Source of the DNA: Mogibacterium sp. | GTDB lineage: Bacteria > Bacillota > Clostridia > Peptostreptococcales > Anaerovoracaceae | Reading direction: 5' to 3' | DNA: 47,406 nt | NCBI GenBank assembly: GCA_017434025.1 | Contig: JAFRGC010000065.1 | Span: 1 to 47,406, forward strand | In this document: one piece after another, positions 16,550-19,112 of the stretch | How positions within the stretch are numbered: position 1 is the first letter of the stretch | Layout of the letters: each line of letters begins with the position of its first letter | Notes under the pieces: generated by a model | Told to the model about the DNA's origin: nothing | Databases searched by the model: none | What the model saw: only the letters and a program-made list of their open reading frames with translations | Translations under genes and position numbers: made by a program

Positions 16550-16578
16550 ATTATACCACTAATCGTGGTCTATTCACA
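16550..16578 (-). promoter_or_regulatory. Extended -10 promoter ahead of rdgB
   Basis: On the minus strand TGG directly precedes a perfect TATAAT (16558-16550). The -35 position (TGTGAA, 17 bp upstream) matches poorly, which is usual for extended -10 promoters. It overlaps the 3' end of the SCIFF maturase gene. Confidence 0.5.
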
Positions 16579-18018
16579 GCCTGCCTGTTTCTCATTCTTC
16601 GCGACTGCAAGCATAAGTGCGCATTCGATCCTCTTGCGCTGCAGTTCGCATCCAAATTCATACACTTTGTTGATATCTCCGTTCGAATGATAGTTATTGG
16701 CAGCGCATCCGCCGGCGCAGTACAGTTTGACCCAGCAGTCTTTGCAGGCATTCCTGGTGTAGAGGTTATTTCCTCCGGAGAAAATTCCGACTGTCTCCGG
16801 ATGAGTGATCCCCTCATAGATATTGCCCACGATCATGTCATCATCTCCGACAAACTGATGGCAGGGATACAGGTCTCCGGTCGGTGTCACCGCGAGGTAT
16901 TCGGTCGCAACTCCGCAGCCTGATACCCTCTTGTAGATGCACGGTCCACCGGTCAGATCCACAGTGTAGTGGTAGAAGTTGAAGCCTTCTCCTCTCATTT
17001 CCCTGTCATACATCTCCATTGCGAGTTTCTCGTATTCCTCAAACAGCTGAGGCAGGTCTTCCTTGTGAAGTGCGTACGGAACAGAAGGATCCGACACCAC
17101 CGGTTCGATGGAAGTCTCTTTGAATCCCATATCCGCCATCGCGAGAACGTCTCTGGAGAAATCCTTGTTATATGCTGTATATGTGCCGCGCATGTAATAT
17201 TCCGAAGAACGCCGCTCAGCGCCAGGTTCTGTCCTTGAAGCAACAAGTGCCTTGAAATTATCCATGATGCTGTCATATGTTCCGTCGCCGGACTTGGTAT
17301 GTCTCATGCGGTCATGAGTCTCTCTCCTGCCGTCCATGCTAAGCACGACATTCCCCATCTCCCGGTTGGTGAAATCGATCACATCATCATCGATCAGGAC
17401 CCCATTGGTCGTCAGAGTGAAATTGAATATTTTATTGTGTTTCTTCTCAAGTTCGCGGCCATATCTGACGAGTTCTTTGCAGACATCCCAGTTGATCAGC
17501 GGTTCTCCTCCGAAAAAATCAACTTCGAGGTGTCGTCTGCTGCCCGAGTTCTCGACCAGATAGTCAAGCGCTCTCTTGCCTACCTCGAGACTCATGATCC
17601 CGCTCTTCCCGGAATAATCGCCCTTTCCTGCAAAGCAGTATTCACAGTCCATGTTGCATCCGTGCGCTACATGCAGGCAGATCGCTTTGAGTACAGACTG
17701 TTTGATCTTGAGATCTGACGCTGCAGCCTCAAACAGGTCTTCTGACCATAACAAATTATCAGCCACCAGATCTGCCAGATCGTCCATGACCTCATAGGTA
17801 TCCTCTGCAGGCACTTCATATGCTGCAAGGATCTCTTCTGACACAGTTCTGCGGATCTCCTCGTCATTGAGGACCTCTGCTGCAGTTCGGTCTCCTCTGC
17901 GTATGACCTCATCCACTTTGGCGATGATATCATAGGCTACTTCATCTACTGAATGTACTGATGCGCTGTTAGCATCGACTATTATGTTGTAATTATTGAA
18001 TTTGTATTGATGTATCAT
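16570..18018 (-). CDS. scfB: SCIFF ranthipeptide maturase, radical SAM/SPASM enzyme
   Basis: A 482-residue enzyme that forms thioether bonds in the SCIFF peptide encoded just upstream. An N-terminal PqqD-like peptide-recognition region (about 1-100) precedes the radical-SAM cluster motif CNMDCEYC (Cys121, 125, 128), a TIM-barrel core with FFGGEPLINWDV, and a SPASM domain with Cys in GPCIYKRVSGCG, YPCHQF, CKDCWVKLYCAGGC and a terminal GCELQRKRIEC, enough for two auxiliary 4Fe-4S clusters. All catalytic motifs look intact, although the cognate peptide has lost one Cys. It is separated from the peptide gene by an intrinsic terminator, so it is made by read-through. Confidence 0.94.
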   Translation of the reverse strand: MIHQYKFNNYNIIVDANSASVHSVDEVAYDIIAKVDEVIRRGDRTAAEVLNDEEIRRTVSEEILAAYEVPAEDTYEVMDDLADLVADNLLWSEDLFEAAASDLKIKQSVLKAICLHVAHGCNMDCEYCFAGKGDYSGKSGIMSLEVGKRALDYLVENSGSRRHLEVDFFGGEPLINWDVCKELVRYGRELEKKHNKIFNFTLTTNGVLIDDDVIDFTNREMGNVVLSMDGRRETHDRMRHTKSGDGTYDSIMDNFKALVASRTEPGAERRSSEYYMRGTYTAYNKDFSRDVLAMADMGFKETSIEPVVSDPSVPYALHKEDLPQLFEEYEKLAMEMYDREMRGEGFNFYHYTVDLTGGPCIYKRVSGCGVATEYLAVTPTGDLYPCHQFVGDDDMIVGNIYEGITHPETVGIFSGGNNLYTRNACKDCWVKLYCAGGCAANNYHSNGDINKVYEFGCELQRKRIECALMLAVAKNEKQAGCE

Positions 18019-18033
18019 GATTCACAACTCACT

Positions 18034-18061
18034 AAAAAAAGCGCTGCCCGGAAGCAGCGCC
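18034..18061 (-). terminator. Terminator between SCIFF peptide and maturase genes
   Basis: On the minus strand GCGCTGC (18060-18054), loop, GCAGCGC (18047-18041), then seven T residues (18040-18034). It sits 11 bp after the peptide stop codon and 16 bp before the maturase start. It should give high peptide and low maturase transcript levels. Confidence 0.9.
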
Positions 18062-18071
18062 TTGCAGTATC

Positions 18072-18221
18072 TTATTTCTCCTTGCGCTGCTCGCAGTGCT
18101 GATTTGCAACGCTGCAGGAAGTCTTGCTTGCAGACTGGCAGGATGTCTGGCACTCGCCGCAGCCGCCGTTGATACTTGACTTAGCCATATCTCTTGTTGT
18201 GATGGTCTTGATTCTCTTCAT
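18072..18221 (-). CDS. scfA: SCIFF ranthipeptide precursor, five-cysteine variant
   Basis: A 49-residue precursor starting MKRIKTITTRDMAKS and carrying the SCIFF core GGCGECQTSCQSASKTSC followed by SVANQHC. Usual members have six Cys in 45 residues; this one has five (21, 24, 28, 36, 43). Position 32 is Ser (AGC) instead of Cys, and position 37 is Ser (AGC) instead of Thr. These are the donor and acceptor of the Cys32-Thr37 thioether reported for characterised SCIFF peptides. The start is at 18221 because AGGAGGA lies seven bases before it; an upstream in-frame ATG at 18254 has no ribosome site. It has its own promoter and is followed by a terminator and scfB. Confidence 0.93.
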   Translation of the reverse strand: MKRIKTITTRDMAKSSINGGCGECQTSCQSASKTSCSVANQHCEQRKEK

Positions 18222-18288
18222 GATATTGTTCCTCCTGTATCGGTCTATGCGCACCTAATACGCATGATCCTTGTCTTGTACGCCTGTT

Positions 18289-18318
18289 AGAATACCATTA
18301 AATCTCAGGCTGTGTCAA
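18289..18318 (-). promoter_or_regulatory. scfA promoter
   Basis: On the minus strand a perfect -35 box TTGACA (18318-18313), 18-bp spacer and -10 box TATTCT (18294-18289), giving a leader of about 60 nt before scfA. Confidence 0.75.
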
Positions 18319-18329
18319 TGTTGAGTATA

Positions 18330-19112
18330 CTACTCTGCGGTCTTAGGCGCAGCGGTGATCTTATATGTGAATACCGCTTCCTTCTTCATATCGCGGTTGA
18401 CGATCCTGATTCTGTCGGCCTTGCCGTCAGTGCTGTCAGCCTTGACCAGAATGTCTGCGTGTTCACCGGCAGCGATGTCAACGGTGACATCCTGTCCCGG
18501 AATTGGCGGCAGATCCCAGTTCCTGGTATCCGGATTGAAAGCTGTATGCAGGAATCTGATCTTTCCGACTGTCACATCGAAGTGATAGATGCAGTCTACA
18601 TTGACGCTTGGCAGCAGGCATTCGCTCTGCTTGTTGCCCAGCTGTCCCCAGAGATTGACGACAGCAGAAGCAGTCCTGTAAACAAGTCCTCTGTACTCAT
18701 TCCTGGAGTTGACGGCTTCGCTGATGATCACAACATTGCATGGGCAGTTGTTGATGACATATTCCGCAGTAGTGCCGATGCTGTTCAGCATATCCTCTCT
18801 GGATGATTTGGTCATGATGATCTCATCGATACCAAGTTCCCTGGCAGCTCTGATGATCCTGACACCTGCCTTGCCTACGGCTGCTCTCTTGGTGAGCTTG
18901 TATCCATCAAAGAATTCCCCGACTACATCGAGTTTCTCGTCAAGAGCTTTGTGCGCTTCACTCTCCTCATCTGGTCTGAGAACATAATCCTGGCTCTCAT
19001 CGATCATCAGAAGGACGATCTCAGCATCTTCCGGTGTGTAGTGATCCAGGACATAATGCATGGCTTTGAGACTTCTTTCGGTCTCTTCGATTGGCAGAAG
19101 TATTTTCTTCAT
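18330..19112 (-). CDS. Universal stress protein domain fused to an unknown beta-rich domain
   Basis: A 260-residue protein. Residues 1-140 are a UspA domain (MKKILLPIEETERSLKAMHYVLDHY start, then GVRIIRAARELGIDEIIMTKSS and the C-terminal strand CNVVIISEAV). The usual ATP-binding G-2x-G-9x-G(S/T) motif is not clear (DMLNSIGTTAEYVIN at that position), so nucleotide binding is uncertain. Residues about 150-260 form a beta-rich domain I do not recognise, with the repeated feel of a sandwich fold (VTVDIAAGEHADILVKAD). The start at 19112 is chosen because GGAGGAA sits five bases before it and itself contains the alternative upstream ATG. The gene is probably monocistronic. Confidence 0.8.
   Translation of the reverse strand: MKKILLPIEETERSLKAMHYVLDHYTPEDAEIVLLMIDESQDYVLRPDEESEAHKALDEKLDVVGEFFDGYKLTKRAAVGKAGVRIIRAARELGIDEIIMTKSSREDMLNSIGTTAEYVINNCPCNVVIISEAVNSRNEYRGLVYRTASAVVNLWGQLGNKQSECLLPSVNVDCIYHFDVTVGKIRFLHTAFNPDTRNWDLPPIPGQDVTVDIAAGEHADILVKADSTDGKADRIRIVNRDMKKEAVFTYKITAAPKTAE

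Follow-up and report, generated by a model that had tools for sequence, protein, structure and literature searches.

A lineage of five-cysteine SCIFF peptides that includes Mogibacterium is fixed for serine at both published cross-link positions

Few clostridial peptides are as conserved as the SCIFF precursors. All clear homologues of the family appear to be functionally equivalent according to the accessible part of one study (PMC5300114). A thioether between Cys32 and Thr37 was obtained in vitro for Tte1186a and CteA (Bruender 2016; Grove 2017), and in E. coli a bond from Cys32 to the gamma-carbon of Thr34 was found in CteA (Hudson 2019), both as related in the available excerpts of two reviews, which leave the discrepancy between Thr34 and Thr37 standing; in one of these excerpts the engagement of the other cysteines is left open as well. 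The locus described here lies in a window of 47,406 nucleotides from Mogibacterium sp. (contig JAFRGC010000065.1), this being the whole stretch of DNA that was analysed. An earlier note on this DNA had treated the Cys32-Thr37 thioether as the established bond of the family, which agrees with the in vitro products as reviewed; the acceptor is disputed, however, and Thr34, the residue assigned in E. coli, is retained in the window.

The SCIFF locus of the window

The SCIFF precursor gene is located on the minus strand (18072..18221) and encodes 49 amino acids and a stop, with the ATG at 18221-18219, the stop codon at 18074-18072 and a coding part without stop of 18075-18221. An AGGAGG sits nine bases 5' of the ATG, within an upstream region (18222..18330, minus strand) in which a promoter-like pair TTGACA ... 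TATTCT, 18 bases apart, can be read by eye. The translated peptide, MKRIKTITTRDMAKSSINGGCGECQTSCQSASKTSCSVANQHCEQRKEK, reaches 75.7 bits with TIGR03973 (cut-off 50) and 74.3 bits with PF13165 (cut-off 27), and its 49 residues align without gaps with SCIFF residues 1-45. Its cysteines number five, at positions 21, 24, 28, 36, and 43, where the family description calls for six within about 45 residues; on sequence grounds it is thus a five-cysteine variant homologous to SCIFF and an atypical member of the family. Translation and alignment bear out the serines that had been reported from the letters alone: codon 32 (18126..18128, minus strand) is AGC, in place of the cysteine codon TGY of most SCIFFs, and codon 37 (18111..18113, minus strand) is again AGC, where peptides of the C32/T37 type (T type) have threonine and those of the C32/G37 type (G type) have glycine. 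Neither published partner residue remains, and a single base suffices for either change; peptides with S32/S37 are termed S type. Codon 34 (18120..18122, minus strand) encodes threonine, the acceptor of Hudson (2019) according to the two reviews as far as available.

The start of the maturase gene lies 53 bases downstream of the SCIFF stop. This gene (16570..18018, minus strand; 16573-18018 without stop) encodes a SCIFF maturase of the radical SAM/SPASM kind with 482 amino acids and a stop, as indicated by its TIGR03974 score of 663.5 bits (cut-off 425), its match to CteB and its cluster cysteines; against the exception model NF040492 (not_ScfB) it reaches 519.4 bits, under the cut-off of 855. 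CteB is the closest solved relative (490.6-492.9 bits; 5wgg 490.6 over residues 1-470), and the N-terminal part of the window maturase aligns with the peptide-binding part of CteB. Eleven cluster-type cysteines (C121, C125, C128; C360, C368, C386, C425, C428, C434, C438, C457) each match a cysteine of CteB, so that, by alignment, both the radical SAM motif CX3CX2C and the SPASM cysteines appear to be in place and the earlier statement that the maturase kept its cysteine ligands holds. Codon 370 (16909..16911, minus strand), two residues past the cluster cysteine Cys368 in the alignment, encodes valine.

The 53 bases between SCIFF stop and maturase start (18019..18071, minus strand) contain a terminator-like hairpin followed by seven T, with a fold of the gap at -19.5 kcal/mol. 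By a simple rule, such a hairpin with a T run is found in the SCIFF-maturase gaps of 93/94 S/S, 2/2 S/A and 0/1 S/G loci, and the same rule gives 13/19 for C/G and 54/92 for C/T; perhaps the hairpin sets a high ratio of peptide to enzyme. The genes flanking the locus, one with a Usp domain upstream and one of the Ham1 family downstream, show no apparent link to peptide modification. A second intact SCIFF, which the earlier note had held against its own claim, was not found in the window's own genome, where a search with E up to 10 (89 contigs, 83.8% complete) returned a single copy; rescue by a second six-cysteine SCIFF is rejected within this 84% complete draft.

Distribution and conservation of SCIFF types

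A total of 373 SCIFF copies were read, counted as copies and not as independent events, in a survey that copies too divergent for the family model would escape. The main types are C32/T37 (219 copies), S32/S37 (102) and C32/G37 (48), and Ser32 is present in 105 of the 373. Core positions 28-31 and 33-35 are invariant, Cys28 and Thr34 among them (373/373). Position 36 is cysteine in 371 copies, both exceptions being C/T copies; these were encountered at phylum level (L360 and L367), where Cys36 has given way to leucine and isoleucine while Cys32 and Thr37 are kept. Within the core, variation is greatest at 32 (C 268, S 105) and at 37 (T 219, S 102, G 49, A 3), the positions of the published partners. 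All 105 copies that have no Cys32 carry serine there, and Ser32 together with Thr37 was observed in none of the 373 copies. The two positions changed jointly in the window, as had been noted, although this is not always the case, since the C32/G37 type altered position 37 and carries Cys32.

Searches with the family models served as background, with 0/14 control genomes above the cut-off. Within the window's genus, 43 SCIFFs were found and 22 read, all of them with Ser32 (22/22); Ser32 also occurs in named strains of Mogibacterium, Baileyella, Mobilibacterium, Anaerovorax, and Alterileibacterium. When named genomes were scanned with the window peptide as seed, 224 relatives were found, and the best 80 loci, a choice that leans towards the S type, comprise 78 with Ser32 (76 S/S, 1 S/A, 1 S/G) and two with C32/G37. 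Among the relatives searched with the models, 105/119 genomes contain a SCIFF, and the 82 copies read amount to 50 C/T, 23 S/S, 1 S/A, and 8 C/G (Ser32 24/82). The ordinary C32/T37 type is found in nine genomes of other genera of the same family (L116-L124). At the level of the class, SCIFF is present in 328/391 genomes; 178 loci with 181 copies, besides 15 genomes already among the relatives, were read from a non-random mixture of best-scoring, listed and weaker-scoring genomes, yielding 141 C/T, 36 C/G, 3 S/S, and 1 C/A (Ser32 3/181). Six of the C/G copies belong to three tandem loci (L196, L199, and L202), each of which holds a pair of G-type copies inside one open frame, every copy with its own leader. 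From the phylum, 30 of 309 maturase-bearing genomes were read, all with a SCIFF, namely 28 C/T and 2 C/G (Ser32 0/30).

A recent mutation, an assembly error or a decaying gene in a single genome can be given practically no probability: no support for it was found beyond the fact that the window genome is an 84% complete draft, and against it the Ser32/Ser37 pair recurs, with synonymous variation, in many MAGs and in seven strain-named records (L067, L068, L071, L072, L075, L087, and L088). In 100 S/S copies, codons 21-40 make up 70 distinct nucleotide cores that translate into only 4 distinct amino-acid cores, and the S-type core is, judging from its codons, under strong purifying selection. 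Ser32 is encoded by AGC or AGT in all 103 S32 copies of a 253-copy set, one base away from TGC/TGT, and Ser37 by AGC, AGT, or TCT in the same set. A lone mutation or base-call error is likewise ruled out by the 105 Ser32 copies and their synonymous variation. Ser32/Ser37 is therefore the fixed state of a lineage and not a recent lesion; the homologue search that the earlier note had called for recovered the pair in 102 of the 373 copies, and what had seemed a striking double loss in one genome turned out to be shared across that lineage of gut bacteria.

Several individual loci deserve mention. The MAG name RGIG2439 covers two different S-type SCIFF loci, L069 and L094, i.e., either paralogues or a mixed bin. 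L104 is the only S32/G37 copy; it has a G-type maturase, its contig title gives a coverage of 1.98, and a base error is possible. In L077 the maturase is split over two frames and the tail of the SCIFF is unlike that of its relatives, as if frameshifted. No maturase was present within the 1500 bases fetched on either side of the SCIFF in L005, L008, L011, L012, and L013, where the two genes may not adjoin.

Maturases of the serine type

Co-occurrence of peptide and maturase was assessed in 31 genomes chosen from the relatives, with maturase searches at E up to 1e-60. The maturase is present in 17/17 tested SCIFF-bearing genomes of the window's genus, its own included (the peptides of eight of these were read, all Ser32), and missing in 13/14 relatives that have no SCIFF; in the remaining one, G093, it lies at the end of a contig, and the SCIFF may be cut off. 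Among maturases, dN/dS was computable for 6 of 66 pairs, with values of 0.045-0.069 and with saturated synonymous change in the remaining rows printed, and between the window maturase and eleven relatives dN is 0.12-0.19, dS being beyond computation for ten. The S-type maturase is, as far as these ratios indicate, under purifying selection.

Phylogenies were built from 157 rows, i.e., the window copy and 156 maturases thinned from 223 of at least 350 residues, and with more care from 76 thinned rows. In both trees the S and G types form a clade apart from the T type (support 99 with 157 rows and 100/99 with 76 rows). On one side of the 157-row tree, 79/79 rows from many families have C32/T37, while Thr37 occurs in 0/78 rows on the other. 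The joint states at positions 32 and 37 take four changes on the 157-row tree and five on the 76-row tree, the possible minimum being four. Unconstrained trees place the G type within the S type, but a topology that unites the S rows in one clade could not be rejected (p-AU 0.491, 76 rows); one loss, several losses or a regain of Cys32 are therefore all compatible with the data. Long branches in the 76-row tree belong to L232 and L098, and the C/G locus L232 falls among G rows in the 157-row tree and among S rows in the 76-row tree.

The eleven cluster cysteines are kept across all types, and their columns are cysteine in all 55 S/S rows save one row at position 457. Only 4 of 442 usable columns (120, 132, 370, and 460) fully separate the S from the G type, each of them within four residues of a cluster cysteine, as are 73 of the 442 columns (hypergeometric p 0.0007, with a four-residue limit that was chosen after these columns had been seen). 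At other divergence thresholds the enrichment is weaker (p 0.024-0.09). On average, the S and G types even diverge slightly less close to the ligands than elsewhere (0.167 vs. 0.175; rank test p 0.01). Clustering of S-G differences near the iron-sulfur ligands would thus be a lead and not a proof. Position 370 is valine in 56/56 S rows of the tree, serine in 21/21 G rows, and alanine or serine in 75/79 T rows, Val370 being found in 3/79 T rows as well. A later-fetched set of 120 loci supplied 103 maturases (in the other 17 loci none lay within reach) and gave Val370 in 2/2 S, Ser370 in 21/22 G, and Ala or Ser in 71/79 T maturases; its G-type members carry Thr120 (21/22), Gln132 (22/22), and Phe460 (18/18 with a residue there), and its T-type members Asp120 (73/79). 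At positions 120 and 132, many S rows share their residues with the T type. Similarly, the maturase tables exclude 21 of the 250 loci behind the 253-copy set in which no maturase could be reached; a residue table made by regular expression missed 28/229 maturases, and the alignment-based tables avoid that expression and cover the 157 tree rows only. In these alignments the maturase columns clearly co-vary with peptide type, the tie between residue 370 and Ser32 resting on very few evolutionary events. Alignments to CteB and to sulfatase-maturating enzymes, taken with the partly available description in PMC6231123, suggest that residue 370 would lie beside the first auxiliary cluster, at its open site.

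Cross-link chemistry and comparison with known systems

The S type differs from CteA in the residues that form its bond: Ser32 and Ser37 stand where CteA has its Cys32 donor and its in vitro Thr37 acceptor, and Thr34 is present. Neither published bond, to Thr34 or to Thr37, is possible in the S type, since Cys32 is absent, and the residue certainly lost is this donor. Loss of Thr37 may matter less, as many C32 peptides carry Gly37. Because glycine has neither a beta nor a gamma carbon, no beta or gamma bond can be made at position 37 of the G type, and Gly37 in 36 of the 181 class copies read rules out Thr37 as the gamma-carbon acceptor of all SCIFFs. As conservation extends to both the peptide core and the maturase, an alternative reaction is inferred, and the S type would be best explained as a functional, lineage-fixed SCIFF together with a maturase that has co-evolved with it. 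If this enzyme works like CteB, its N-terminal domain would bind the leader and the radical SAM cluster would generate a 5'-deoxyadenosyl radical. Most likely the maturase continues to form a thioether, with the invariant Thr34 as acceptor and another conserved cysteine as donor, candidate donors being Cys36, two residues past Thr34 and thus the mirror image of Cys32, and Cys28. That a donor can follow its acceptor is known from NxxcA, where Cys23 is joined to Asn20 according to the available part of a review. The invariance of Thr34 alone does not mark it as the acceptor, given that Gln29, Ser30, Ala31, Lys33, and Ser35 are equally invariant. A thioether from Cys36 or Cys28 to Thr34 would nevertheless be the most economical alternative, and the different cross-link that had been proposed among several options appears to be the best reading.

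That the S type is a co-evolved pair with such a thioether to Thr34 is a view that can be held with moderate confidence. A broader scheme, possible but on balance doubtful, would distinguish three dialects with retuned residues near the clusters: a gamma-carbon bond in the T type, a bond restricted to the alpha carbon, the kind found in sactipeptides, in the G type if made at position 37, and either a serine-based ether or oxidation or the use of another cysteine in the S type. It is unlikely that the physiological bond or bonds of all SCIFFs bypass positions 32 and 37 and use invariant residues, with the Cys32 bond seen in vitro and in E. coli as one product of a tolerant enzyme. Such a bond would agree with the variation of positions 32 and 37, the other seven positions between 28 and 35 never varying in 373 copies, and with the reviews, whose available parts disagree on the acceptor and in one case leave the other cysteines open; the T side of the maturase tree, with Cys32 and Thr37 in 79/79 rows from many families, argues that both residues matter there, and outside S/S and S/A copies Ser32 was met only once among the copies read (L104).

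It is rather improbable that the S-type maturase, in place of forming a thioether, acts on a serine, for example by oxidizing Ser32 or Ser37 to an aldehyde in the manner of anaerobic sulfatase maturases, or by making an ether bond. Second to CteB among the solved relatives come the sulfatase-maturating enzymes, which oxidize serine or cysteine according to two reviews as far as available; moreover, all 105 copies that depart from Cys32 have serine and no other small residue, and Ser37 is encoded by both AGY and TCT. Yet the match to a sulfatase enzyme is weak (52.1 vs. 492.9 bits), TGY to AGY is a simple one-step route from cysteine to serine, and S32/A37 and S32/G37 copies occur. Very improbable, finally, is a loss of the cross-link that would leave the five-cysteine peptide unmodified or disulfide-linked and the maturase retained either to serve as a binding partner or to act on a different substrate. 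The reported donor is indeed missing, and peptides of the T, G, and S types all persist, but the maturase has kept its cluster cysteines, seems to evolve under purifying selection and is missing from nearly all relatives that have no SCIFF (13/14).

The five-cysteine form is found in Mogibacterium kristiansenii and Baileyella intestinalis. Strains of both are presumably part of a published collection of pig isolates. The accessible part of the corresponding study states that its SCIFF precursors all possess the six-cysteine motif (PMC7738495). Among the literature matches listed, no title reports a serine-type SCIFF, which is weak evidence given a coverage that leaves most subscription journals outside. 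The SCIFF family as such is known; its reaction site, as this comparison shows, is not uniform. For the dispute over Thr34 or Thr37, this means that natural Cys32/Gly37 peptides cannot use position 37 as a gamma-carbon acceptor, and in the S type, enzyme-substrate pairs for studying maturase action without the known donor are already at hand, some of them in named strains.

Compared with SCIFFs of the CteA/Tte1186a type (TIGR03973, PF13165; ranthipeptide), the window peptide is similar in length, leader, core and the kind of neighbouring maturase, but has five cysteines instead of six, and both the donor Cys32 and the in vitro acceptor Thr37 are serine. Its leader begins with MKRIKTITTRDM, whereas T-type copies mostly start with MKHIKTL or similar. 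CteB (PDB 5WGG, 5WHY; TIGR03974, ScfB) is a near full-length homologue of the window maturase; the latter keeps every cluster cysteine and differs from CteB near the cluster ligands, with Gly120 in place of Asp, Val370 in place of Ser and Gln460 in place of Glu. The G-type SCIFF, described from sequence, shares a maturase clade with the S type, from which it differs by keeping Cys32 and by its Gly37. Finally, freyrasin PapA/PapB and QhpC/QhpD involve related radical SAM/SPASM enzymes that form non-alpha thioethers (Cys-Asp and Cys-Glu), according to reviews in their available parts; their acceptors are Asp or Glu, whereas the only acidic residues near the core cysteines of the S type are Glu23 and Glu44.
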